Part shown: in pieces, positions 1 to 46,251 of the stretch | Layout of the letters: every line of letters starts with the position of its first letter | Position numbering within the stretch: the stretch's first letter is position 1 | IMG/VR virus record: IMGVR_UViG_3300014820_000002 | Span: 1-46,251 of that record | DNA length: 46,251 bases | Strand: one strand, 5' to 3' | DNA from: a virus | Notes under the pieces: generated by a model | The model's database searches: none | What the model was told of the DNA's origin: nothing | The model's input: only the letters and a program-made list of their open reading frames with translations | Position numbers and translations under genes: made by a program

Positions 1-49
1 GGCATAAACCCTCTATCTCCCTAAAGGGAGTAACACGGGAGATTGAAGT
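1..49. repeat. Terminal direct repeat closing the circle (second copy 46203-46251)
   Basis: The first 49 bases are identical to the last 49. The copy at 46203 begins inside the final codons of the last head gene and runs into the spacer before the first gene. Most of it is a REP-like palindrome (CCTCTATCTCCCTAAAGGGAG and flank). The most economical reading is a circular assembly whose ends overlap by one k-mer. A short genuine terminal redundancy would look the same. Confidence 0.9.
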
Positions 50-3626: not shown

Positions 3627-5264
3627 ATGAAAAAACAAATGCATTATAATGTTCCGCAAGTAAGGAGCATGATGATTGCGGCAGCGATTGAATACATTGT
3701 TCACGGTAGAGGCACCGGTAAAACTGTTGGGCCACTGGCATACAAAAGCGTAAACAAATATGTTAGGACAATGCCACGCGGCACTCACGTGATCCTGGGT
3801 GCAACTTACACACAGGTACTTACAAGAACTTTAAAAGAATTAATTCGCGGATGGCAAATGCATGGTTATGTTTATGATCATCATTTTATTGTTGGCAAAA
3901 GGCCAACTGATAAATGGAAGAAGATGTGGAAGTGGAAAGGACCTTATGCGCCTCCGGAAGATTATAAAAATTATATCTGTTGGTGGAATGGTGCCATCAG
4001 CCAAATCGTTAGCCAGGCTAATCCTGGATCCTCGAATGGTATGAGCATCGATTCAATTATTGGTGATGAATTAAAACTTATAAACAGAGAAAAATTTCAA
4101 ACAGAATTGTTGCCGGCAAATCGTGGGATCATTCCTGCGTTTGCAAATAATCCTTATCATCATGGAATGACTTTTACAACCGATATGCCTGTTGGCACTG
4201 CAGGCCGGTGGATATTGGACATGAGAGATAAAATGGATAATGAAAAAATTAATGAGGTGTGGAAAATGCTTGCAGTGCGGTATGATATCACAAATGATAT
4301 TAAAAAAGAAACGGATAAAAAAATACTGAAGGAATTAAATAATGATTTGTTCCTGGTTGATGATGAGCTTAACGAATTACGCAAAGGATTGCTTTATTAT
4401 CATGAAGCTTCAACATTGGCAAACATTGATGCGTTGGGCCTTGATTACATTAAAGAGCAATTGAGAACATCAACACAATTTCAATTTGATACACAAATTT
4501 TAAATATCCGTCCATTAAAAATGGAAGATGGATTTTACCCGGACTTTGACGAAGAGGTGCATGGTTATTTTGCAGAGAATGAAGATTATTTTACTAACCT
4601 TGAATATGATCCCTTCTCCACTGTATTGGATTGCAGGAAGGATAAGGACCTTAATACAAACGCTCCACTGCATATTGGCATGGATTATAACAGACGCATA
4701 CATTGTATCTCTGTTGGGCAGGAGACGGCTAATGAGGTACGTTCTCTCAAGGGCATACATTGTTTGTACCCGGAGAAGCTTAAGGATGTAGTAGAGAAGT
4801 TCTGTGTGTACTATAAGGCACATAAACGTAAGCTGGTGTACTATTGGTATGATCATACAGCAGTGGGTGATCAGCATGAGACACGGATATGCGATGATGT
4901 GATAGCAATACTACGTAAGCATGGATGGGTAGTTATTCAAATGTACATTGGCCACCAACCAGGGCATGAAGAGAGATACAGGATGTGGGGAGATTTGCTA
5001 ACGTTTAATGGTAAGTATAAGCAAGCGTATAAGATCAATAGAGAGAACTGCAATAAACTAATACTCTCAAAATGCCAGGCACAGGCAGAGCAGCGTAAGG
5101 ATGGCTTTGGCAAGGATAAGAAGAGTGAACATGATCGTAACTTTCCTGCCGAAGAATCTACTCACTACACTGATGCCGAGGATACATGGGTCTTTGGTAT
5201 ATTGGAATCTAAGATGAGCTTCAGCACTGGGTCTGGTAGTGGTGGTAGTATTATACTTGGGTAA
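3627..5264 (+). CDS. terL: Terminase large subunit (packaging ATPase-nuclease)
   Basis: 545 aa. Walker A is HGRGTGKT at residues 26-33 and Walker B is SIIGDE with D147-E148. These belong to the motor that pumps DNA into the prohead. The C-terminal RNase H-like nuclease shows GMDYNRR (D353) and a late acidic pair in THYTDAEDTW. Lys codons change sharply near residue 335. Before it AAA dominates, roughly 24 AAA to 5 AAG by my reading. After it AAG dominates, roughly 19 AAG to 3 AAA, with CGT becoming the common Arg codon. The nuclease half therefore appears to come from another source, and the unusual spacer that follows may have arrived with it. Confidence 0.9.
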   Translation: MKKQMHYNVPQVRSMMIAAAIEYIVHGRGTGKTVGPLAYKSVNKYVRTMPRGTHVILGATYTQVLTRTLKELIRGWQMHGYVYDHHFIVGKRPTDKWKKMWKWKGPYAPPEDYKNYICWWNGAISQIVSQANPGSSNGMSIDSIIGDELKLINREKFQTELLPANRGIIPAFANNPYHHGMTFTTDMPVGTAGRWILDMRDKMDNEKINEVWKMLAVRYDITNDIKKETDKKILKELNNDLFLVDDELNELRKGLLYYHEASTLANIDALGLDYIKEQLRTSTQFQFDTQILNIRPLKMEDGFYPDFDEEVHGYFAENEDYFTNLEYDPFSTVLDCRKDKDLNTNAPLHIGMDYNRRIHCISVGQETANEVRSLKGIHCLYPEKLKDVVEKFCVYYKAHKRKLVYYWYDHTAVGDQHETRICDDVIAILRKHGWVVIQMYIGHQPGHEERYRMWGDLLTFNGKYKQAYKINRENCNKLILSKCQAQAEQRKDGFGKDKKSEHDRNFPAEESTHYTDAEDTWVFGILESKMSFSTGSGSGGSIILG

Positions 5265-5681
5265 TGTTGGGTGTTGCTTCGCCCGGGCTTTCCATTACTA
5301 TCTCTCACTGCGTTCAAGGATATACATTACAATCCCTAACACAAACAACAATGCAACATGGTGGCTTCGCCTTACATAGGGGATACCTCGGGCTACGCCC
5401 AACGTAGGGAGGCGTTTCCGACATCCTGTCATTTTGTCTTAGCGAACGTAGGGAGGCGTTTCCGCCATCCTGTCATTTTGTCTTAGCGTTTGCGACAGCC
5501 TGTCATATTTGCCTGCCATTTTGTCTTGGCGTGCGCTCTTACCCCTTTGGGCGGGGGCTCGATTCCAGTTTACGAAAACGAAGTTTTGAAAAAAGAAAAA
5601 AATAATCGTTTGAGCATCAATGGAATGCGTAAAAATAGAGCGAAATAGGCAAAATAACTGTCCTAAAATTTGCATAATATA
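5265..5681. other. Non-coding, repeat-rich spacer after the terminase
   Basis: About 400 bases with no convincing gene. It starts with TTCGCCCGGGC-type sequence, contains a 44-bp tandem duplication (5401-5488) and a degenerate third copy (5489-5531), then turns A-rich (5575-5680). Its GC-rich, TCGCC/GGCG-rich character differs from the rest of the genome and resembles host intergenic sequence. It directly follows the compositionally odd half of the terminase gene. Confidence 0.7.
5401..5488 (+). repeat. 44-bp tandem duplication
   Basis: Two head-to-tail copies (5401-5444 and 5445-5488) of a unit starting AACGTAGGGAGGCGTTTCCG and ending TTTTGTCTTAGCG, differing at one base (A to C). A third copy at 5489-5531 retains CCTGTCAT and TTTTGTCTTGGCG. 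Confidence 0.9.
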
Positions 5682-6041: not shown

Positions 6042-7522
6042 ACGAGTACTACGACGGCCCGGTAACCTATTTAGAACAAAGCGAAAGCGCAGTATATTTC
6101 TCCCGTGAAAGCGTTACTGCCGGTACATTTCAGGCAAACAGCCAAAAAAACGGAAGTGCAGATTCTACAGCGATCATCATTCGCAAACTGCAAAGCCAGA
6201 TAGATCTTGCTTATTGGGGAGAAGATAACCGGTTTCCTCAAAATATTGTACGCCAAATGGCTTACTGTGGCATTGGCCAGTACGGGCTTGATCGTAAGGC
6301 CCGCAAACTGTGGGGCAATGGCATTATTCCCGGAAAAATAACCGGCTACGATGCTAATGGCACAGAAATATTTGTTCCCTTAAAACCTCAAAAAAATTCA
6401 CCGGTATACAAATATTTCAACGACCGTAAAACACTTCGTTTTTGGCTGGAATATCTACAGGATTGGGCATGGTTCTCCAATTGCTTCCCCGAAGCAATTC
6501 TCAGCAAGGATTGTAAAACAATTACCCACTTCGCACACCAGGAAAGCTGCGATTCCCGGTTCAAGCAAATGAATGATGCAGGGAAAATTGAATACATGTT
6601 CCTCTCAAAAATTTGGGGCCTTTCACGTGATCAGTTTGCAACATTCGACCCAGATAAAGCCATGAAGGGCCTGTACACAAATCAGGAAAATTTTAGCGAA
6701 ATAGATAATAAATATATCAAGAAGCTTGACTGCATCGATATGTACGATCCGGTTAACAGCCTGAAGGAAATTGCAAAAAAATTAAAATCAAAATCGGGTT
6801 TAAAATCTGCAATTCTTCCCGTTAATTATCCTTCACCAAATAAAACATATTACCAGGTGCCGGTATGGGATGGAGCACGCCTGGGCGGTTGGGTTGAGAT
6901 TGCATGTAAAGTTCCGTCACTCATTAAAACGCTTTACAACAAAGCATTTAAAATAAAAAATCACATCGAGATCCCATCATCTTACTTTCCTGAAAGATTT
7001 GGCGAAGAAGCCTGGGCAGCAATGAAGGATGACGAAAAAATCAGGAAGAAAAAAGATGTGCTCAAAGAAATGGATGAATTCCTCTCCGGGGATAAAAATG
7101 CTTTCAAAACATTCGTAAGCATATTCCAGGTTGATAATATAACCAAAAACGAATACGCACGCATAAAAATCACGCCGATAGAAGATAAAGCAAACATCGA
7201 TAACGATATTATTACCGGCTCTGCAGCTGATACTCAAATATTAATTGCGATGGGCCAGAATCCCACTATTTCAGGCGCAGGTAAAGCAGGATCAGGACAG
7301 CAACGCAGTGGCGGATCAGATATCCGCGAAGGCGACCTGGTAGAAACTTCAGTGCTAAATCTTGAGAGAAATGTTTTTATGGAACCGCTTTACCTCATGC
7401 GTGATTTTAACCGCGAAGTAGGTGGTATTAGCGAATGGAGCGAAGATCTTGTCTTCCGTGTTCGTGATACCGTATTAACCACGCTGGACACCGGTGCCGG
7501 AACAAAAAAAGTAGTTAGTTAA
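6038..7522 (+). CDS. Portal protein
   Basis: 494 aa, a normal length for siphovirus portals. The N-terminal part is mixed alpha/beta with aromatic-rich helices (LRFWLEYLQDWAWFSNCFPE). The middle has the stem/wing pattern (GWVEIACKVPSLIKTLYNKA). Near the C-terminus are a Gly/Ser-rich loop (SGAGKAGSGQQRSGGSD, about residues 410-427) and a long helix (VETSVLNLERNVFMEPLYLM). It follows the terminase with one small gene between and precedes a connector-type gene. The portal is the ring at one capsid vertex through which DNA passes. The call rests on length, order and helical pattern. Confidence 0.7.
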   Translation: MNEYYDGPVTYLEQSESAVYFSRESVTAGTFQANSQKNGSADSTAIIIRKLQSQIDLAYWGEDNRFPQNIVRQMAYCGIGQYGLDRKARKLWGNGIIPGKITGYDANGTEIFVPLKPQKNSPVYKYFNDRKTLRFWLEYLQDWAWFSNCFPEAILSKDCKTITHFAHQESCDSRFKQMNDAGKIEYMFLSKIWGLSRDQFATFDPDKAMKGLYTNQENFSEIDNKYIKKLDCIDMYDPVNSLKEIAKKLKSKSGLKSAILPVNYPSPNKTYYQVPVWDGARLGGWVEIACKVPSLIKTLYNKAFKIKNHIEIPSSYFPERFGEEAWAAMKDDEKIRKKKDVLKEMDEFLSGDKNAFKTFVSIFQVDNITKNEYARIKITPIEDKANIDNDIITGSAADTQILIAMGQNPTISGAGKAGSGQQRSGGSDIREGDLVETSVLNLERNVFMEPLYLMRDFNREVGGISEWSEDLVFRVRDTVLTTLDTGAGTKKVVS

Positions 7523-9097: not shown

Positions 9098-12000
9098 ATG
9101 AAAAACTGTTTCGCAAAAACATTCGCAAATATCTTCTCCATTTCCTTCCCCCTCAGGGGGAAGATAGAAGGGGGTTTCTTCCTTCGCACAACTTTCTTAT
9201 TTCTTATTTCTTATTTCTTATTTCTTATTTCCGCCACAGCCCAAAACGGCGGCCAGTTCAACAAGTTAATTGTAAAGGATAGCTTTAAGCTTGGCAACAC
9301 CTGGTACACCACATTTACATTTGGTGGCGGCATCACTGATACAATTCCCTTGCACGATGAAATTTTTGCCCGTGCGCTGGATAATGCAGTTGTGCATCTC
9401 TCCGGCACCGAAACCATCACCGGCATAAAAACATTTTCGCAATCACCAAAAACAATTGCACCGGCTGCAGGTGACAGCTCCACAAAAATCCCGACAACAG
9501 AATGGGTGATGAAACAAATTGCCAATGGCCCAACCATTGATGTTTCCGGAAAATTAAACAAGAGCGATAGCAACACTATTTATTATCCCGCAAGTAATCC
9601 ACAGCATTTTCTTACCACGGCAAACGAAACTGATCCTACAATACCTGCATGGGTAAAATCAATTGCTAATGGAACGGCAGTAAATCAATATCTTGGCTTT
9701 AACGGCAGCGCCTGGATAGCACGGCAGATACAATTTACAGACATTGCTTCGGTAATGAGCTTCCCTTATGTTGCCAATAGGTTCCTTAATGGCTATGGCG
9801 CATTTACGCCATTAAACACTGACAGTGTACCGGAAGGGCCTACAAACAAATATTTTACAAATGCCAGGGTAGCAACATACGGCGATGCACATTATTACCC
9901 ACTCTCATCAAATCCTGCAAATTATTTAACGGGCACACCATCGGCTCTTACAAAAACAGATGATACAAATGTTACTTTAACGTTAGGTGGCACACCATCA
10001 ACATCTTTATTACAGGCTACATCTTTAACGTTAGGCTGGACAGGGACGTTAGCAGATGGAAGGATTACCTCGGCATCAAATTGGAATACAGCATATAGCT
10101 GGGGAAATCATGCCGGACTTTACAAAGGAATTGCAGATAGTTCTAATACGGTAAGTGGTTTTACTTCTCTTTGGCAAAATAGTTTAAAACAAAATCAATT
10201 ATCAGGCACAGGCTATGCAAAATGGTCAGGAAGCACACCATCATACCTAACACCAACACAGGTAACTGCTGATCTAAATTTATTTTCTTCAACGCTTAAG
10301 GGATTAGCTCCTTTAAGCGGTGGCGGTACTTCCAATTTTTTACGTGCAGATGGTACATGGGCTGCGCCGGGTGGAGGAACTTATACCGGCATTTATTCAA
10401 TAACAGATTCAGCTAATAAATTAAAACTCAAAAACGATCTTCCAATAATACCAATAAGGAATGTATATGGGACTCTTAGCGATAATATTCCGCAATGGCT
10501 GAAGAATTCTGTAATAGATATGACAGGATTTTCAGATGGTGATTTACCAAAATTCAGAGCATTAGATTCTACCTTTATAAAGTTTACGCCTAATTATTTA
10601 ACTGGCACACCATCTGCACTTACAAAAACAGATGATACAAATGTTACTTTAACGTTAGGTGGCACACCATCAACATCTTTATTACAAGCAACATCTTTAA
10701 CGTTAGGCTGGACAGGGACGTTAGCAGATGGAAGGATTACCTCGGCATCAAATTGGAACACAGCATATAGCTGGGGTAATCATGCCGGACTTTACAAAGG
10801 AATTGCAGATAGTTCTAATGCAGTAAGTGGGTTTACTTCTCTTTGGCAAAATAGTTTAAAACAAAATCAATTATCAGGAACAGGCTATGCAAAATGGTCA
10901 GGAAGCACACCTTCATACCTAACGCCAACACAGGTAACCGCTGATCTTAATTTATTTTCTTCAACATTGAAAGGGTTAGCGCCATTATCAGGAGGTGGCA
11001 CTTCCAATTTTTTACGTGCAGATGGTACATGGGCGGCTCCGGGTGGTTCAATCCCAACTCTTTCTCAGGTGTTAAATGTCGGTAACTCTTCAAATACAAA
11101 TCCAATTGAGTTACAAGCTCCAAGTTATTTAAGACTATCAAACGGAAGTGGGGATGGGGTAAGGTTTACAGGCAATGGGCAAAATAATATTCAAGTGTCT
11201 GATGATGCAGATGCTCACTCTGCAATTTTAGATTTTTCTGTAGTATCGTCAACTAAAACAATAAAGTTCCCAAATGAAAATGATACTCTTGCAACAAGAG
11301 GCTTTGCAAGAAGTTTGGCAGGTGGCGGTGGTTCAGCTCCCACTATACCAGCAACACAAATCGCATTCGGAAACGGCGTAGCATCTTACACCTCTTCTCC
11401 TGGGTTTATTTACGATACAACAGCTAAGGTATTTGAAGTAGATTTTGACGGACAAATGAGAATGGAGATAGTAGATTCCAGTGTGACTTATAATGCTACG
11501 ACAGACTTTAGAATCCAGAACTATAGCGGTAATCCTGTCGCAGATTTTGTATCAGATGCCAATAATTTCGTAATATATCTTGGAGATGTAAATAGTACAG
11601 CCAATCAAACGCTATTACTAATAGACGATCAAAATAAAAAATTACAATACACGGGAGGAACTGGTAAATACTTAAATCTTGATCTTGCCAGCCATCGGTA
11701 CGATATAGGAGATATAGATTCATCATTAAATAATACAAATATTCTTATAAATGACAGCTTAAAAACAATTAAATTAAATGCTGTTAATGGTGTAACCGTT
11801 TCTAATAACATTCAATCTAATTCAACCACCAACACCTTTCAAACATTAACTGACGGAAGCACAATTACCATGAATGTAAACAACGGCATTACAGCACAGG
11901 TAACCATAGCAGCAACGGGAAGAACATTTGCCTTATCTAACCTCCCATCAGGAAAAGCCATGTTTATCACCACTAAGATCATTGAAGGTAGCGGCGGCTC

Positions 12001-12148
12001 ATTCACAATAACTACATGGCCCACAGGAGTTAAATGGAAGGGAGGCACAGCACCTACATTATCTGCGGCGGCTGGCTCAGTTGATATTATTGCTTACTTC
12101 TGGGACGGCACTAATTTGTACGGCACTTTTGGAAATGATTACAAATAA
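9098..12148 (+). CDS. Large tail fibre with signal peptide and internal duplication
   Basis: 1016 aa. Fibre-type motifs recur: ETITGIKTFSQSP, ADGRITSASNWNTAYSWGNH, LRADGTWAAPGG. The DNA for about 152 residues is duplicated nearly perfectly (9919-10374 and 10591-11046). The N-terminus is odd. A family B REP element (9137-9180) encodes FPLRGKIEGGF. A TTTCTTA heptamer array (9193-9231) then encodes a hydrophobic stretch of FLISYFL repeats, ending in SATAQ, a Bacteroidota-like signal-peptide cleavage site. The C-terminus (VTIAATGRTFALSNLPSG and on) resembles fibre C-terminal domains. It probably binds the host surface. Export before assembly would be unusual. ATG at 9098 is the only evident start upstream of the signal core. 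Confidence 0.8.
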   Translation: MKNCFAKTFANIFSISFPLRGKIEGGFFLRTTFLFLISYFLFLISATAQNGGQFNKLIVKDSFKLGNTWYTTFTFGGGITDTIPLHDEIFARALDNAVVHLSGTETITGIKTFSQSPKTIAPAAGDSSTKIPTTEWVMKQIANGPTIDVSGKLNKSDSNTIYYPASNPQHFLTTANETDPTIPAWVKSIANGTAVNQYLGFNGSAWIARQIQFTDIASVMSFPYVANRFLNGYGAFTPLNTDSVPEGPTNKYFTNARVATYGDAHYYPLSSNPANYLTGTPSALTKTDDTNVTLTLGGTPSTSLLQATSLTLGWTGTLADGRITSASNWNTAYSWGNHAGLYKGIADSSNTVSGFTSLWQNSLKQNQLSGTGYAKWSGSTPSYLTPTQVTADLNLFSSTLKGLAPLSGGGTSNFLRADGTWAAPGGGTYTGIYSITDSANKLKLKNDLPIIPIRNVYGTLSDNIPQWLKNSVIDMTGFSDGDLPKFRALDSTFIKFTPNYLTGTPSALTKTDDTNVTLTLGGTPSTSLLQATSLTLGWTGTLADGRITSASNWNTAYSWGNHAGLYKGIADSSNAVSGFTSLWQNSLKQNQLSGTGYAKWSGSTPSYLTPTQVTADLNLFSSTLKGLAPLSGGGTSNFLRADGTWAAPGGSIPTLSQVLNVGNSSNTNPIELQAPSYLRLSNGSGDGVRFTGNGQNNIQVSDDADAHSAILDFSVVSSTKTIKFPNENDTLATRGFARSLAGGGGSAPTIPATQIAFGNGVASYTSSPGFIYDTTAKVFEVDFDGQMRMEIVDSSVTYNATTDFRIQNYSGNPVADFVSDANNFVIYLGDVNSTANQTLLLIDDQNKKLQYTGGTGKYLNLDLASHRYDIGDIDSSLNNTNILINDSLKTIKLNAVNGVTVSNNIQSNSTTNTFQTLTDGSTITMNVNNGITAQVTIAATGRTFALSNLPSGKAMFITTKIIEGSGGSFTITTWPTGVKWKGGTAPTLSAAAGSVDIIAYFWDGTNLYGTFGNDYK
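9137..9180 (+). repeat. REP-like palindrome, family B, inside tail-fibre N-terminus
   Basis: CTCCATTTCCTT, CCCCCTCAGGGGG, AAGATAGAAGGGGG. It is in frame with the fibre gene and adds residues between the start and the hydrophobic signal core. Confidence 0.85.
9193..9231 (+). repeat. TTTCTTA heptamer array
   Basis: About five and a half head-to-tail copies of TTTCTTA. Because 7 is not a multiple of 3, three units encode a 7-residue hydrophobic repeat (FLISYFL), which forms the signal-peptide core of the tail fibre. Copy-number change would alter the frame unless three units move together. Confidence 0.95.
9919..10374 (+). repeat. Long direct repeat in tail fibre, copy 1
   Basis: About 456 bp, repeated 672 bp downstream (10591-11046) with a few scattered differences that are mostly silent. 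It encodes the GTPSALTKTDDTNVTLTLGG to RADGTWAAPGG module. Confidence 0.95.
10591..11046 (+). repeat. Long direct repeat in tail fibre, copy 2
   Basis: Second copy of the module at 9919-10374. The non-repeated sequence between the copies (about 10375-10590) encodes YTGIYSITDSANKLKLK onward. Confidence 0.95.
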
Positions 12149-33159: not shown

Positions 33160-33177
33160 TGCCGTGTAAGTGCGGCA
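33160..33177 (+). promoter_or_regulatory. Leader hairpin 1 (TGCCG / CGGCA)
   Basis: TGCCG, loop TGTAAGTG, CGGCA, followed by ATTTTTAAATCTAAATT and then the start codon at 33195. One of four short hairpins with 8-nt loops lying just upstream of start codons in the early region. Confidence 0.6.
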
Positions 33178-33194
33178 ATTTTTAAATCTAAATT

Positions 33195-33293
33195 ATGCAA
33201 GAAAATTTTTACGACAACGATGTGCTCAGCTTCCTGATGGGATTGTGTGTTGGTTTTTCACTTGGACTTATTATAGCGGCTATTATATTATGA
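33195..33293 (+). CDS. 32-aa membrane peptide coupled to primase
   Basis: MQENFYDNDVLSFLMGLCVG, then FSLGLIIAAIIL: a polar N-terminus and one membrane helix. Its TGA overlaps the primase ATG (ATGA at 33290), so the two are translationally coupled. Role unknown. Confidence 0.6.
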   Translation: MQENFYDNDVLSFLMGLCVGFSLGLIIAAIIL

Positions 33294-34393
33294 TAAAACA
33301 AAACTCCATAGAAGAGCTCCGCAACAAATGTGATATCACAGATGTTGTAAATAAATATACTGTTGTAAAACGTGATATGGCCTGCTGTCCCTTTCATGAT
33401 GAGAGAACGGCAAGCTTTAAAATATACCCGGCAAAACAAACCTATAAATGTTTTGGCTGTGGCGAAAGTGGCGATGTGTTTAAGCTCATCATGAAAAAAG
33501 AGAATTTAAATTTTGTGGAAGCTGCAGAATATTTAGCAGCCGCCGCCGGCATCGGGCTGGAGTATGATCAGCAGAGCCAGCAGGAAGCCCAGGAAATAAA
33601 AGATGAGCGCAAAGAAATGCTCGCCATTGCAGAATGGGCAAATAAAAAATACATCACATCATTGGTGCAACTACCGGATGATGATGCCGCCATAGAATAT
33701 TTAAATGTGAGGGGCTACAGTCGCGAAAGAGCAACAGCCTGGGATCTTGGCTTTGCCCCGGATGACTGGAAATTTATCACAACTCCGCTGATCAACATGG
33801 GTAAACTAATGGATGCAATAAAAACCGGGTTGGTTTATTCCCGTGATGGAAAGAACTGGGATTTTTATCGCACCAGGATAACCATACCAATCCATGATCA
33901 CAATGGTATTGTAGTCGGCTTAGCCGGGCGGCTTATCCCTCCCCCACCGGGGGAGACGGAGGGGGCAAAGCAGCCCAAATATTTAAACCCGGTAGAGAGC
34001 CTTATTTACAGCAAGAAGAAAATTTGGTACGGGCTATGGCAGGCACAAAAAGCGATAAAGGAAGAAAAGTTTTGTTACGTGGTAGAAGGATATTTTGATG
34101 TGCATGCCATGCAGGATAATGGAATGCTCAACACCATTGCCGCCTGCGGTACAGAGGTTGATGACAGCCAGATAAAGTTTTTAAAAAGATACACCGAGCG
34201 TGTAGTGATAGCATTTGATGGTGACGGGCCAGGGACAAAAAAACAAATGCTGCTGATCAATATTTTTTTACAAAACAATTTTAAAGTTGATGTGCTTGTA
34301 CTTCCCCAAGGGAAGGACCCGGATGAATATATAAATGAATTATTAAAGATCCCGCAGGCGGCGGTTGACGAAACATATATGGTCAGGAGTTAA
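33290..34393 (+). CDS. DnaG-type primase
   Basis: 367 aa from ATG 33290 (MIKQNSIEELRNKCDITDVV). The zinc finger is C33-P-F-H36 and C54-x-x-C57 (KCFGCGESGDVFKLI). The catalytic core has RGYSRERATAWDLGFAP and GLAGRLI. The TOPRIM domain shows YVVEGYFDVHAMQDNG and IAFDGDGPG. It makes RNA primers for replication. Residues about 216-226 (PPPPGETEGAK) are encoded by a family B REP element inserted between the GR-L and PKYLN blocks of the core. There is no C-terminal helicase-binding domain, so the partner at 38127 must interact differently. The longer frame starting with GTG at 33170 is rejected. Confidence 0.9.
   Translation: MIKQNSIEELRNKCDITDVVNKYTVVKRDMACCPFHDERTASFKIYPAKQTYKCFGCGESGDVFKLIMKKENLNFVEAAEYLAAAAGIGLEYDQQSQQEAQEIKDERKEMLAIAEWANKKYITSLVQLPDDDAAIEYLNVRGYSRERATAWDLGFAPDDWKFITTPLINMGKLMDAIKTGLVYSRDGKNWDFYRTRITIPIHDHNGIVVGLAGRLIPPPPGETEGAKQPKYLNPVESLIYSKKKIWYGLWQAQKAIKEEKFCYVVEGYFDVHAMQDNGMLNTIAACGTEVDDSQIKFLKRYTERVVIAFDGDGPGTKKQMLLINIFLQNNFKVDVLVLPQGKDPDEYINELLKIPQAAVDETYMVRS
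33931..33968 (+). repeat. REP-like palindrome, family B, inside primase
   Basis: CTCCCCCACCGGGGGAG followed by ACGGAGGGGGC, in frame with the primase. It fits a loop between conserved core motifs, so the enzyme could tolerate it. Confidence 0.9.
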
Positions 34394-35551: not shown

Positions 35552-35703
35552 TGCCGCACCAAGCGATCATATTACCCATTAAACCGCAACTAAAAAAAGT
35601 ACCTTCTAAACAGGCACCGGTAAAATTATTATTGCCACCGGTGGATAAATCTTTCTTACATTCATTGGCTCAAATTTTTGTAACCAAAATTCTGCAGTCA
35701 TGA
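35551..35703 (+). CDS. Hypothetical 50-aa basic protein before recombinase
   Basis: MPHQAIILPIKPQLKKVPSK, then QAPVKLLLPPVDKSFLHSLA. Pro- and Lys-rich, with no known domain. Coupled by overlap at both ends: its ATG overlaps the upstream stop, and its TGA overlaps the recombinase start. A longer start at 35521 is possible. Confidence 0.5.
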   Translation: MPHQAIILPIKPQLKKVPSKQAPVKLLLPPVDKSFLHSLAQIFVTKILQS

Positions 35704-37283
35704 AAAAAGCGATAGCATACAAACGCATCTCTACAAAAGATCAAAGTAATTTTTCTTTACCCGGCCAGGAGAAACATATAAATGAATTTGCTGCCGCAGA
35801 AAATATAACAATAGTTGGCAGCTTTACTGATGATGGCAAAAGTGCAAAAAACTTTGACCGCCCTGACTGGAAGTTGCTGGAAGCCTTTGTACGTGAGCAT
35901 CACAGGGATGTTGATTATTTAATTGTAATTAAATACGATCGCTTTAGCCGCAATGCTGCACAAGGTTTACAAAAAATAGAATGGCTGGAACAGAAGTATC
36001 GCATCATGATCCTAAGTGTTTTTGAAAGAATGCTTATTGATTATGATTCTCCATTTTATTTTAAGCAACGTGCCGACATGCTTGTGTCTGCAGAGTTTGA
36101 ATTGCGTGTGATCCGCGACAGGACAAAGTTTGGAATTCACAATGCATTAAGCAGCGGAAGATTTATAAATATGGCGCCGTTTGGATATCGCAATGAACGT
36201 GAAGGGAAGAAAGTACCGGTGATAAAAATTGTTGAAGAAAAAGCTTTGATAATAAAGAAGATCTTCACGATGTTTTTAGCGGGCAGTAATAAAATTGAAA
36301 TATTTAGATCTGCAAAGCTCGCCGGTTTTACCAGGACATCACACAGCGCCATCCCGGACGTTTTAACCAACTGCGTTTATGCAGGATTGATCTATGTGCC
36401 GGCGTACAAAAAAGAAGCTGCTAAATATGTGAAGGGTGTACATGATGGAATTATTGATGAGCATACATATTGGCAAGTGCAGGAACGCCTTGGTAATACT
36501 TTGCAGAAAAGAAATGTGCTCAATCCGGAAGTGCATTTACGTGGTGTGTTAAAACACTCATGCGGAAAATTATTAACGGCAGGTAACAGCCGCAGCAAGA
36601 GCGGAAGATATTATTGGTATTACAAATGCAATGATCATCGGGAAACAAATTATTCAGCAAACAAAATTCATTTGCAGTTTGATGAAGTACTGCAACATCT
36701 TAGCCTCAGTGATCAGCACATAAATTATTTGACTGAGGCGGCGCATGAAGAAATGAAAATTCAATTGCAGGACAGGGATAAAAAAATAGTTCAATTAAGA
36801 AAAGAGTTACAGGCTGCAATGAAAAATATTGATAACCTGGAAGAGAAATTTATTACAGGGGATCTTGCACCGGCAACTTATAAAAAATGGTACAGCAAAT
36901 ATGCAGCGGCAGAAAGTTCCATCCGTCACCAGTTGGCCGAATTAGAAAAAAATTCTGAAGACAAATGGAATTTATTTTATACCGAATTACCGAAGCTTAC
37001 GGATATGCAGTACCTGTATCAGGCAGCAGATCTATCACAGAAAAGAACATTTGTGCGCCAGGTGTTCAACTCACAACTGTCGTATGTGGATGGTATCTAT
37101 AGAACACCATTTCTGTTACCATTGCTTAGTCACAACACATTGATTTTAAAACAAAAAGGGCTGCTCATAGTTGAACAGCCCCCGCAATTAGTTGCAGTAA
37201 ATGAAGGAAGTACCCCGAACCGGAGTATAATTGAACTCCACTCCTCTTTTCTACAATTAGTTGCGGAAATTAAAACCGCTTAG
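35700..37283 (+). CDS. Large serine recombinase (phage integrase)
   Basis: 527 aa. N-terminal resolvase domain: YKRISTKDQ with nucleophile Ser11, LPGQEKHINEFAAAENITIV, DDGKSAKNFDRP, IVIKYDRFSRNAAQG. Recombinase domain: APFGYRNEREGKK and following. A zinc-ribbon-like segment has reduced ligands (KHSCG, then YKCNDH). A coiled coil lies at about 350-420. Such enzymes integrate phage DNA at a single site, usually with a directionality factor. This makes the phage temperate by gene content. Its 3' end (37158-37264) has a strong hairpin (GGGCTG/CAGCCC) and an 11-bp direct repeat CAATTAGTTGC, a place worth testing for attP. Confidence 0.9.
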   Translation: MKKAIAYKRISTKDQSNFSLPGQEKHINEFAAAENITIVGSFTDDGKSAKNFDRPDWKLLEAFVREHHRDVDYLIVIKYDRFSRNAAQGLQKIEWLEQKYRIMILSVFERMLIDYDSPFYFKQRADMLVSAEFELRVIRDRTKFGIHNALSSGRFINMAPFGYRNEREGKKVPVIKIVEEKALIIKKIFTMFLAGSNKIEIFRSAKLAGFTRTSHSAIPDVLTNCVYAGLIYVPAYKKEAAKYVKGVHDGIIDEHTYWQVQERLGNTLQKRNVLNPEVHLRGVLKHSCGKLLTAGNSRSKSGRYYWYYKCNDHRETNYSANKIHLQFDEVLQHLSLSDQHINYLTEAAHEEMKIQLQDRDKKIVQLRKELQAAMKNIDNLEEKFITGDLAPATYKKWYSKYAAAESSIRHQLAELEKNSEDKWNLFYTELPKLTDMQYLYQAADLSQKRTFVRQVFNSQLSYVDGIYRTPFLLPLLSHNTLILKQKGLLIVEQPPQLVAVNEGSTPNRSIIELHSSFLQLVAEIKTA

Positions 37284-38126: not shown

Positions 38127-40310
38127 ATGACCCAACCTCCAAACCTAAATGCTCACTTCATCACGCTACAGAAAGATGCAGTGCTATGGAAGGCTGAAAA
38201 GCTTTGGCAAAAAGCAAACGACCCGGACGAGCAGGCCATGGCCATGGACGAGCTCGTAAAAATGATGTGCTGCATAAGCAATGATACAAAGCGCACCTAC
38301 TATATCACTGATGTACAAAAAGTAAATAAAATAAAAAACCGCCTCTTAGAAAAAAATGTAAAAGAGGAATTGCAACTGCAGAAAAAAAAGCTTGAAGAAA
38401 AAATAAACCGTGCCCGGCTGGAGCAGGAAAAAATATCTGCAGAAGATGTTGGGCTGGTAGAAGGTTTTAAAGGCGCTGTGTATGATGCAATAAAATATGG
38501 CATCTACGAGCATGAGGGAGTGTACTTCACCAGGGGAACAAAGGGAAGTGATTACCCGGTGTCAAATTTTACAATGAAAATATTGTATCACGTAGATACA
38601 AGTGATGATGCGGCTTTCAGGCTTATCGCTGTAAAAAATGTTTACGGGTTTGAAGTAACAATAAATTTAAACACTGATGATTTTGTAAGTCTTGGTGCAT
38701 TTAAAAAAGTATTGGCCCGGCGTGGTGATTATATTTTTAAAGGCGCTGACAGTGACCTTAGCCGGCTGCAGGAATATCTTCAAAAAGATGAAATAAAAAC
38801 CATCTATGTAAAGAGTTTAGGCTTTCATAAACGTGGCCAGTTCTGGGCCTGGGGAAATGGAATAATGCCGGTGATAGATACTCCCGATGTACCCACGCAA
38901 TTTTTAGAAGTAGATGAATATGGCATCGTTCCCTTTGGAGAAAAAAAATATTTCATTCCCGCCTGCAGTAAAATGTATGAGGACAAAGATGAAATGTTTG
39001 TGAATGAGAAAAAATTTATTTACATCGAGCCGGTGAAAGATTTTGGATTTAATGAGTGGAGCAAACTGGTTTATAAAACCTACGGAGAAAAAAGTATTGT
39101 GTCCATTCTTTTTTATGTTGGATCTCTTTACCGCGATATTGTGATGAAGCACCTGCAGCGCTTTCCGATTTTAAATTTATTTGGCCCTCCCGGAGCAGGT
39201 AAAGGACAGATGGCCGAAACAATTCTTAGCATGTATGGCACAAAGCAGGATCAGATAATGCTTGGCGGTGCCAGCACTGTTGTTGGCTTTATGCGAAAGT
39301 TTGCACAGCTCATCAATGGCATTGTGTGGCTTGATGAATACAAAAATAATTTGCCCGTAAAATTTATTGAGAGCTTCAAAAATATTTATGATGGCAAAGG
39401 GTATGAACGTGGAAAAATGACGAATGATTTTACAACAGAGAGCACGCCGATCAACAGCAGTTGCATTCTCTCCGGGCAGGATCTTCCAACAGTGGAACCA
39501 TCACTGTTTATGCGCTGTGTGATGCTGGCATTTGAAGAAGGAAAATTTACAACAGAGCAAAGAGAAAATTTTCAAAAATTGAAATCGGAATATGAAAGCG
39601 GCGGACTGAGCTTCATCACAGCAGATCTTATCCGGTACCGGAATATTGTGCAGGAAAAATTTAAAGAGCAGCAACAATTAATTTTTAAGCAAACAATAAA
39701 AGACGTTGCAAATGTAGAAGTGGATGACCGAATGATAATGAACATCAGTATTTTTTTAACGATGATGAATGTGTTGCAGGAGGTTGTTGAATTTCCTTTT
39801 ACATACGCAGCCGCAAAAGCTTTTTTAATTGCAAATATGTTGCAGCAGCACAGCATACTTGCCGGCAACAACGAGGTTGCAAAATTCTGGGACGTTGTAG
39901 AGCAGTTGCTGCACCAGGATATGATCTTAGAAGGAAAAGATTTTATTTTTGAAGATGGATATCTTTTCATCCGCATACAGCAGGTACACCCGCTTTATCA
40001 AAAAGAATTGATACAGCGCCGGGACATGACCGGCTTATCAAAAGCAACGCTCGATTATTATTTGCAGCTTGATAAATCTGCTTTTAAAGACCATGTAAAA
40101 AAACGATTCTCTGACGGAAGTAACACCTGGTGTTTTCAAATGAAATATGAAAAGCTGAACATTGATCTTATTAAAATGAAGAAAGGTGAAATGCAAACGA
40201 TTGAGCAATTTAATTCGGCTCTCAATGAAAAATATAAAAATGCCGGCATTGAAAATCCTGATTTTAAAGAGAGTGAAGAGTTACCATTTCCAATAGAAAA
40301 AACAGCATAA
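38127..40310 (+). CDS. Replicative primase-helicase ATPase
   Basis: 727 aa. Walker A GPPGAGKG at about residues 352-359 and Walker B GIVWLDEY at about 397-404. A conserved segment follows with GKGYERGKMTNDFTTESTPI, SSCILSGQDLPT and RCVMLAFEEG, the pattern of DUF927/DUF3987-like superfamily 3 helicases. An N-terminal region of about 340 residues (charged coiled coil at 50-110) and a C-terminal helical part flank the ATPase. It should unwind DNA with the DnaG-like primase at 33290. An iteron-like array (40690-40844) lies just downstream, near the next gene. Confidence 0.8.
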   Translation: MTQPPNLNAHFITLQKDAVLWKAEKLWQKANDPDEQAMAMDELVKMMCCISNDTKRTYYITDVQKVNKIKNRLLEKNVKEELQLQKKKLEEKINRARLEQEKISAEDVGLVEGFKGAVYDAIKYGIYEHEGVYFTRGTKGSDYPVSNFTMKILYHVDTSDDAAFRLIAVKNVYGFEVTINLNTDDFVSLGAFKKVLARRGDYIFKGADSDLSRLQEYLQKDEIKTIYVKSLGFHKRGQFWAWGNGIMPVIDTPDVPTQFLEVDEYGIVPFGEKKYFIPACSKMYEDKDEMFVNEKKFIYIEPVKDFGFNEWSKLVYKTYGEKSIVSILFYVGSLYRDIVMKHLQRFPILNLFGPPGAGKGQMAETILSMYGTKQDQIMLGGASTVVGFMRKFAQLINGIVWLDEYKNNLPVKFIESFKNIYDGKGYERGKMTNDFTTESTPINSSCILSGQDLPTVEPSLFMRCVMLAFEEGKFTTEQRENFQKLKSEYESGGLSFITADLIRYRNIVQEKFKEQQQLIFKQTIKDVANVEVDDRMIMNISIFLTMMNVLQEVVEFPFTYAAAKAFLIANMLQQHSILAGNNEVAKFWDVVEQLLHQDMILEGKDFIFEDGYLFIRIQQVHPLYQKELIQRRDMTGLSKATLDYYLQLDKSAFKDHVKKRFSDGSNTWCFQMKYEKLNIDLIKMKKGEMQTIEQFNSALNEKYKNAGIENPDFKESEELPFPIEKTA

Positions 40311-40312
40311 TT

Positions 40313-40723
40313 ATGGATCTATTTACAGAAACAATTCGTAAAGGATGGTGGCAGGTTTTAAATGATCTGCTGAAGTCTGAATTATTAAAGAGCGGCCAGC
40401 ATTTCCTGGTGGAAGATGACCGGCTGTATGTAAGCTTTGGCCCGGTGTTTACTTTGTTCGTAAACCACATAAGGCTTACCAACCAAAGGGCTGATCTGCT
40501 GGTGCCGTCGGTATATATTCGTAAGGCTTTGATTATTGAAGATGGTTTTTTATACCAGCAACGCAAGCGGATGAGCGATACAGTAAATGTAAATACGCTT
40601 GTCTTTGTATGGAACAACCAGCTACGGCCACCGGGAAAACTTATTTTTTTGGATCAATCGAAAATTTTGCAGAAAACAGAAAAAAAGCTTGGAACACATG
40701 GAACACGTGGAACAAATTTATAA
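40313..40723 (+). CDS. Hypothetical 136-aa replication-module protein
   Basis: MDLFTETIRKGWWQVLNDLL, then GQHFLVEDDRLYVSFGPVFT and VNTLVFVWNNQLRPPGKLIF: a folded alpha/beta domain, 2 nt after the helicase. Its last codons (LGTHGTRGTNL) are made by the inverted arm of the GGAACA iteron array, so that end is repeat-derived. No known family. Confidence 0.65.
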   Translation: MDLFTETIRKGWWQVLNDLLKSELLKSGQHFLVEDDRLYVSFGPVFTLFVNHIRLTNQRADLLVPSVYIRKALIIEDGFLYQQRKRMSDTVNVNTLVFVWNNQLRPPGKLIFLDQSKILQKTEKKLGTHGTRGTNL

Positions 40724-40844
40724 ATCTTTAAATATCAATGAACTATAGAACTGACTACGGGGGAAAATGTTCCATGATGTTCCACCATGTTCCACCATGT
40801 TCCACTGTTCCACTGTTCCATGAACAAAAAACAGGTTTGGAACA
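40690..40844 (+). repeat. Iteron-like TGTTCCA array (origin candidate)
   Basis: GGAACA at 40691, 40700 and 40709 (9-bp period), then TGTTCC at 40769, 40779, 40789, 40799, 40806 and 40814 (10, 10, 10, 7, 8 bp steps), and TGGAACA at 40838. The left and right clusters are inverted to each other around an A/T-rich core (40715-40745). The position next to helicase and primase genes fits a replication origin or replication-control site. Confidence 0.75.
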
Positions 40845-40861: not shown

Positions 40862-41068
40862 ATGAGTAAAAAAGATCGGATTACCATCATCATCGCTATC
40901 CTCGGTTTTGCCGGAGGAATGTACTTTAAAACATTTTTGGGAGGCATGGTTTCAGGCTTTTGCCTGTGCCTGATTTTATTTTCCATCCTGGGAAAGATCC
41001 TTTATTCCAAAGCAGCCAGGAGAATGGATAAAAAAACGGAGGAGATTATAAATGGAGAAGATGGCTAA
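40862..41068 (+). CDS. Small two-helix membrane protein
   Basis: 68 aa from ATG 40862 (MSKKDRITIIIAILGFAGGM), after A9TT. An in-frame ATG at 40820 lies inside the iteron array. Two membrane helices (ITIIIAILGFAGGMYF and GMVSGFCLCLILFSILGKIL) and a basic C-terminal tail. It could be a second holin-like or host-membrane protein. A 20-codon frame (41052-41114, MEKMANGRSIGRLIYPELKR) overlaps its end. Confidence 0.6.
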   Translation: MSKKDRITIIIAILGFAGGMYFKTFLGGMVSGFCLCLILFSILGKILYSKAARRMDKKTEEIINGEDG

Positions 41069-42330: not shown

Positions 42331-42840
42331 ATGAAAGGTTGTATTCCTATTGAAATACCCACAAAGAGTTACATACGTGCATACATCATTGCGCAGCTCG
42401 GCGAAAAGCCGTTGATGAATACAAGCCATAACATCGGTTTAAAAATGTATGACCTTCTGCATCACAAAACAAATGAGCAGGATAAAAAATTTACTGCTGA
42501 GAACACCCGGTATAATGCAAAAATAAAAATCTACATCAACTACAGTTTATTTAAGCAACGTGGTTTTATTCTTAACAGCACACACACAAAAAATTTTAAT
42601 TTGTTTGTAGAAGAAGAAGTGAAAACAAGATTTCATTTTTTGATGGATTTTTTTTGCGAGATACTTCCGAGCTTTGAAGCGAACCTTCCGGAGGTGCGTA
42701 GAAAATTAGGAATTGATTTGGAAGCGTGGCCGGATGACAGTATGAAAAAAGATTATTACCGTTACCGGTTGCGAACACGAAAAGAAATTTTTTATAAAAA
42801 TAATGATGCCAATGGGGACAGGTTCACAACTCCGTTTTAG
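42331..42840 (+). CDS. Hypothetical 169-aa protein, possible DNA-binding
   Basis: MKGCIPIEIPTKSYIRAYII, MNTSHNIGLKMYDLLHHKTN, then a helical run with basic residues (FLMDFFCEILPSFEANLPEV, RRKLGIDLEAWPDDSMKKDY). The C-terminal helix-turn-helix-like stretch and basic tail suggest DNA binding, but no known family is evident. It is the last gene before the repeat-containing spacer upstream of the head genes. Confidence 0.65.
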   Translation: MKGCIPIEIPTKSYIRAYIIAQLGEKPLMNTSHNIGLKMYDLLHHKTNEQDKKFTAENTRYNAKIKIYINYSLFKQRGFILNSTHTKNFNLFVEEEVKTRFHFLMDFFCEILPSFEANLPEVRRKLGIDLEAWPDDSMKKDYYRYRLRTRKEIFYKNNDANGDRFTTPF

Positions 42841-45861: not shown

Positions 45862-46209
45862 ATGGCGAAAGCAATTTTAACTACCGAGCAGCAACTTACG
45901 GCCAGTAATGACCAGGTTGATCAACTGACAAAAGAAGTAGAAGAAAAGGATAATGAGATCGCTTCTTTAAAAGAAGAGATCGCATCGCTCGGCAATGTTG
46001 TTACAGAAAAAAAACAACCGAAGGCGGAAAAGAAAACGCCTGTAATACCTGATCCTGTTGATGTTGACGGCACAACGGTAAAATTTAATTTTCCTTGTTT
46101 CCGGTTTGGCGGCAACCGTTACGAAGCGGAAGATGCAGCAACTGACCAGGAACTGATGCGCAAAATTCTTGCAACGAAAGGGCAGGGAATTTTAAAAATA
46201 ATGGCATAA
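45862..46209 (+). CDS. Small coiled-coil head protein
   Basis: 115 aa. Residues 5-50 form a coiled coil (TEQQLTASNDQVDQLTKEVE, EKDNEIASLKEEIASLG). Then a Lys/Pro-rich linker, then a small folded domain (VKFNFPCFRFGGNRYEAEDA, RKILATKGQGILKIMA). Similar short proteins follow capsid genes in many phages and act at the capsid inner face or in head completion. The stop lies in the terminal repeat, so the gene is complete only because the repeat is retained. Confidence 0.7.
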   Translation: MAKAILTTEQQLTASNDQVDQLTKEVEEKDNEIASLKEEIASLGNVVTEKKQPKAEKKTPVIPDPVDVDGTTVKFNFPCFRFGGNRYEAEDAATDQELMRKILATKGQGILKIMA

Positions 46210-46251
46210 ACCCTCTATCTCCCTAAAGGGAGTAACACGGGAGATTGAAGT

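Follow-up and report, generated by a model that had tools for sequence, protein, structure and literature searches.

Short repeats lying in opposed clusters beside a phage helicase gene raise the question of whether they form the replication origin of the genome and, if so, which protein would recognize them. We examined this question in the window, meaning the whole stretch of DNA analysed, which is the full 46,251-bp record IMGVR_UViG_3300014820_000002. The comparative evidence described below suggests, with a probability of about 0.8, that this temperate Bacteroidota phage (nearest hosts Chitinophagaceae) starts its replication at the array, with the helicase encoded upstream as initiator.

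Anatomy of the array

An earlier note on this DNA had described ten copies of TGTTCC or its inverse, in two clusters of opposite orientation around an A/T-rich core. Indeed, exactly ten copies were present at 40,691-40,844, with GGAACA starting at 40691, 40700, 40709 and 40839 and TGTTCC starting at 40768, 40778, 40788, 40798, 40806 and 40814, and the opposed layout was borne out as well. The elements of the array are as follows.

40610..40616, - strand: lone outlying iteron TGGAACA (copy at 40611), outside the range first noted
40690..40714, - strand: left arm, three iterons (TGTTCCA on the - strand) at 9-bp spacing, a spacing kept in relatives
40715..40767, no strand: A/T-rich core between the arms, 53 bp, 26% GC, proposed melting region
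40733..40745, + strand: IHF-consensus-like site TATCAATGAACTA, one mismatch to WATCAANNNNTTR, perfect in nine other cores
40768..40820, + strand: right arm, six TGTTCCA iterons with spacings of 10, 10, 10, 8 and 8
40838..40844, - strand: trailing inverted iteron TGGAACA, 24-25 bp past the right arm

The whole window contained 42 TGTTCC/GGAACA copies against 20.9 expected from shuffles, from which the chance expectation is only ~0.07 copies per 155 bp. A geometry scan independent of the word, which looked for a 9-bp-spaced arm, a gap and an opposite 10-bp-spaced arm, returned the array as the sole site in the window and no site in 40 simulated 46-kb sequences. Moreover, among this phage genome and four related phage genomes, tandem pairs of the TGTTCC word were found in the array only. 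These data indicate that the array is far above chance and unique in the genome. Rfam gave no match at the array, and a literature text search for the word TGTTCCA gave nothing relevant among the results listed.

Gene neighbourhood

The genes that bear on the reading of the array are listed below.

3,627-5,264: likely terminase large subunit (Walker A read by eye), with a likely small subunit just before it
33170..34393, + strand: separate DnaG-like primase of the replication module (PF01807, PF08275, Toprim)
35,700-37,283: large serine recombinase (serine integrase), upstream of the helicase
38127..40310, + strand: SF3/D5-type (SaPI Rep-like) helicase, proposed initiator, with a predicted C-terminal winged helix at about residues 600-675
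40313..40723, + strand: 136-aa ORF whose last codons overlap the left arm; no family match, one relative found
40862..41068, + strand: small protein of membrane type, probably starting at 40862, with a similar gene past the array in the nearest relatives
42331..42840, + strand: 169-aa protein, the next widely conserved gene past the array in nearly all relatives

The array adjoins the 3' side of the helicase gene at ~0.4 kb, with one small ORF between and the helicase stop codon 380 bp upstream, in agreement with the earlier description of the array as lying beside the helicase gene. That one cluster also encodes the end of a protein was likewise found to be correct, the left arm forming the last codons of the ORF at 40313-40723 (...LGTHGTRGTNL*). 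The statement that the array ends at a small membrane-protein gene holds in essence, with the start of this gene more likely at 40862 than at the mechanical ORF start at 40787, which falls inside the array. The further idea that this protein tethers replication to the membrane, drawn from position alone, is unsupported: a membrane-type gene follows the array in the window and its closest relatives (L126, L127, L128, L146 and L130) but is not a general feature of the wider family, and no link of the protein to DNA was seen.

Past the array, the gene order is small membrane-type protein, 252-aa ORF, 169-aa protein and head maturation protease. The family of the 169-aa protein (170 aa in relatives), which opens the late region in nearly all relatives, had no Pfam or PHROGs match. 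Its model gave no confident match to a known DNA-binding fold in the PDB, and it was dropped as a recognisable DNA-binding protein; its nearest predicted structure was an uncharacterised protein of Polaribacter phage Leef_1.

Conservation of the array in helicase relatives

Relatives of the helicase were gathered from viral contigs and bacterial genomes, and those in bacterial genomes were all from Bacteroidota, the closest from Chitinophagaceae. About 20 phages and prophages with helicase relatives carried an array of the same shape, i.e., a 9-bp arm, an AT core and an opposite 10-bp arm. The iteron word switched in both arms jointly, being TGTTCCA, TGTTCGA, TGTCCA, TATCCA, TGTAGGA, TGTAGT or TAGACA; in L130, for instance, both arms have TGTTCGA in place of TGTTCCA. 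In the family at large, one arm kept a spacing of 9 bp (sometimes 8) and the opposite arm mostly 10 bp, and the layout fitted more poorly for TTACAT (L154) and for a Microcystis phage.

The array was located just 3' of the helicase gene in L126, L127, L128, L146, L130, L142, L145, L148 and L149, directly behind it in L128 and L130, and also just 3' of it in two cultured Flavobacterium phages, laban6-1 and 23T. L127, L128, L146 and L130 have the same arms with other surrounding sequence or no ORF between, and L126 keeps the ORF overlap; the overlap of the ORF with the left arm is therefore incidental. As the flanking coding sequence does not persist, the array is evidently a DNA element and not a by-product of coding. 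In many relatives whose helicase is fused to a primase, 1-5 kb separate the helicase gene from the array downstream, which lies beside the 170-aa gene that opens the late region. Several relatives (L161, L162, L166, L167 and L168) carry a second, mirror-oriented array ~0.5-1.3 kb from the first, and in L137 (L166) and L139 (L168) the mirrored pair flanks the conserved 170-180-aa gene.

An IHF-like element in the core

A second element, AATCAATA, recurs among the cores and agrees with the IHF consensus of E. coli. Counting 6-mers in 24 cores without a prior model, we found ATCAAT to be the most enriched, present in 15 of the 24 cores (2.05 expected), followed by TCAATA and AATCAA, which overlap it. 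Perfect sites for WATCAANNNNTTR, the E. coli IHF consensus, occurred in nine of the 24 cores against 0.29 expected in dinucleotide-preserving shuffles, and the consensus was found nine times in 1,525 bp of core versus six times in 43,862 bp of flank, odds that are not to be taken literally because the motif was first spotted by eye and tested later, and some of the cores come from related phages. Two or more mismatches to the consensus were present in six of the 24 cores. From this pattern we infer that a Bacteroidota IHF/HU-type protein may bind the core element.

Predicted fold of the helicase and its relation to the iteron word

The helicase matched phrog_22657 (E=3e-52) and phrog_1139, DNA primase (E=1e-22). 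Its AlphaFold model had a mean pLDDT of 84, and the top PDB fold match of this predicted model was SaPIbov1 Rep, 8tch (8tch_B, E=1.8e-13; TM 0.46 on the query and 0.65 on the target); SCCmec Cch (5dgk) was the other best match, and SaPI5 PriRep1 and poxvirus D5/E5 were lower in the list. Comparison of the helicase profile with PDB chain sequences gave no convincing match, so that the link to SaPI Rep is one of predicted fold only. In the model, the C-terminal part looks like a winged helix.

We compared the middle of the proposed recognition helix with the iteron word. TLENYL (also TLDSYL and TLRNYL) was found with TGTCCA, TLEHYL or TLDYYL with TGTTCCA, TMTHYL with TGTTCGA, TLYKYL with TATCCA and TLEKYL with TAGACA. 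As predicted, L138, L141, L151, L152 and L136, which have TLENYL/TLDSYL/TLRNYL helices, carry TGTCCA arrays; these five arrays were mostly outside the flank first scanned, and that of L136 was already in the geometry scan. The sisters L150 and L152 have identical recognition-helix residues, yet their words are TATCCA and TGTCCA, respectively. Because these two differ in word, the recognition helix alone does not set the word, and its residues were rejected as the sole determinant. Shared descent explains part of the agreement between helix and word.

TGTTCCA arrays in an independent sample

Viral contigs with three close TGTTCCA words were collected with no other criterion, giving at least 120 contigs. 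Among the matches listed, many were mixed-orientation arrays and some were probably protein-coding repeats, and the helicase family of the window was absent. Contigs with same-strand copies only, at multiples of 9 (e.g. L041 and L113), were excluded because their repeats are probably protein-coding rather than origins. When large ORFs abutting the arrays were inspected, eight of ten proved to be primase-helicases with the 3' end at the array, being of the D5/DUF5906 type, the DUF927 type with a Cch-type helix-turn-helix, or the AAA type. Another group of phages, including L006, L009, L023, L033, L059, L063, L095, L100 and L104, has TGTTCC arrays of ~300 bp close to terminase and MoxR-like genes, with the copies in a near-palindromic order that recurs; no helicase was recognised in the stretch examined around these arrays.

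Comparison with known origins

In phage-inducible chromosomal islands (PICIs), the origin consists of two iteron sets around an AT-rich region immediately 3' of rep, and in one element its deletion impaired replication (PMC6092414). Such an arrangement is known mainly from phage satellites of Staphylococcus and E. coli. Similar to the pri-rep-ori module of PICI/SaPI elements, the array in the window lies 3' of the putative initiator gene, its two iteron sets flank an AT-rich region, and the candidate initiator has the same predicted fold (8tch). In contrast, the window represents a full-size Bacteroidota phage that carries head and terminase genes of its own, its words differ, its DnaG-like primase is separate, and an IHF-like core element recurs. 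Unlike a helper-dependent satellite, the window has genes for tail proteins, for a head maturation protease of the ClpP type and for a TerL-like protein; being a full phage, it does not qualify as a PICI.

In P4, the alpha gene is followed directly on its 3' side by crr, and TGTTCACC/GGTGAACA words are placed 9-11 bp apart in both orientations with ~41-43-bp gaps (ori and crr), the words having TGTTC in common with those of the window. P4 differs in that its primase and helicase are fused and it uses two separate sites, whereas the window has a separate primase gene and one array (some relatives have two), and no ATCAAT core is visible in P4. Therefore, with primase and helicase separate and a single site, the window does not contain a P4 system. 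Streptococcus phage Sfi21 has an annotated non-coding origin of 302 bp that starts where a putative primase gene ends, with opposed word pairs 8 bp apart around an A/T stretch; unlike in the window, its word is AGTTAC, the copies are fewer and no IHF-like site was seen. Iteron plasmid origins of the RepE/pi type have iterons of ~17-22 bp, mostly in one orientation, and a Rep that is not a helicase. They share with the window repeated words by an AT-rich region near an initiator gene, and differ from its 7-bp words at an 8-10-bp period and its helicase as candidate initiator.

Alternative explanations

The array might instead be an operator for the late operon starting just downstream, bound by a regulator of the phage for which the 169-aa protein at 42331 is a possible candidate. 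Its position beside the late-region 170-aa gene would also suit a regulatory site: in most relatives the array lies at the border of replication and late genes with the 170-aa gene almost always next, and that gene has mirrored arrays on both sides in some relatives. However, an operator would not usually comprise nine to ten words spread over 130 bp in opposed arms around an IHF-like site, the layout agrees with that of known initiator origins, unrelated phages have such arrays directly behind D5-type helicases, and the model of the 169-aa protein has no confident match to a DNA-binding fold. We therefore regard an operator as unlikely. A pac or cos site for the small terminase can hold repeated words and may adjoin late genes, but the likely terminase large subunit lies ~9 kb away round the circle and it is the helicase to which the array is linked, making a packaging site extremely improbable.

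Sites of the parC type typically consist of short direct and inverted repeats about one helical turn apart. The array resembles this pattern and, with a 49-bp direct terminal repeat, the contig may be circular, as would suit a site at which a ParB/ParR-type protein partitions or segregates a plasmid-like prophage. Nevertheless, the genes beside the array include none recognised as ParA/ParM or centromere-binding, the serine integrase at 35700 suggests chromosomal lysogeny, and the gene that stays linked is the helicase and not a partition gene; partition is thus a very improbable function for the array. There is similarly little probability that the complementary arms act as hairpins of RNA or single-stranded DNA. 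Folding scores under shuffles reached z -3.6 (DNA) and -4.0 (RNA), but any inverted repeat yields such scores. Since the arm spacings differ (9 vs 10 or 8), a long hairpin helix would need a bulge at every repeat; the letters between the words also vary, and Rfam has no match here.

Proposed mechanism and implications

Given its anatomy, its conservation, the co-variation of word and helix, the fold similarity and the core element, we infer that the array most probably acts as an origin of the PICI/P4/Sfi21 kind. The origin reading of the earlier note is thus strongly supported on comparative grounds, namely a geometry kept while the word changes, a SaPI-Rep-like helicase to which the array is linked and the resemblance to PICI, P4 and Sfi21 origins that were defined by experiment. 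At such an origin, the C-terminal winged helix of the helicase would read the TGTTCCA words and, as these lie about one helical turn apart, helicase copies could align along each arm. The opposed arms would then load helicase rings across the A/T-rich core, where an IHF/HU-type protein may bend the DNA, bringing the arms together and allowing the core to melt. Priming of both strands would then fall to the separate DnaG-like primase.

A more tentative proposal, which we put forward as possible and somewhat doubtful, is a widespread Bacteroidota phage replicon of fixed geometry and swappable word, in which the helical spacing and an IHF-bent core stay the same as the word and the recognition surface of the initiator change together, with two mirrored origins around one conserved gene in part of the family. 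If so, coexisting phages would not fire each other's origins, and the word would serve as a replication-compatibility code. Taken as an origin, the array would extend an architecture described as peculiar to satellites to full phages of another bacterial phylum, and the altered iteron words with their matching helicases would offer a natural series for probing how self-loading helicases recognize origins. The word-independent layout could also aid origin finding in uncultured phages with D5-type helicases, with laban6-1 and 23T as cultured cases.

Other features of the window

Cumulative GC skew had been proposed as a check on the origin, a minimum elsewhere counting against it. The detrended minimum fell at 31.6 kb and not at the array, a weak test given the near one-strand gene layout, and the raw curve climbs almost monotonically because most genes are on one strand. 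Gene orientation dominates the signal, so skew was set aside as an origin marker, neither supporting nor excluding an origin.

The 49-bp direct terminal repeat occupies window positions 1-49 and 46203-46251 and contains the palindrome CTCCCTAAAGGGAG. A near-identical copy lies inside L126 (about 7405-7450), behind its helicase; the repeat may therefore be interspersed, which leaves some doubt that the contig is circular. A 44-bp unit occurs twice (5401-5488, 97% identical) in the gap that separates the terminase-like gene from the portal-like gene. A perfect TTTCTTA heptamer is repeated 5.6 times at 9193-9231, early in a tail-fibre-like gene (9098-12148, 1016 aa); with a 7-bp unit in a reading frame, slippage could shift the frame, and phase variation is possible.
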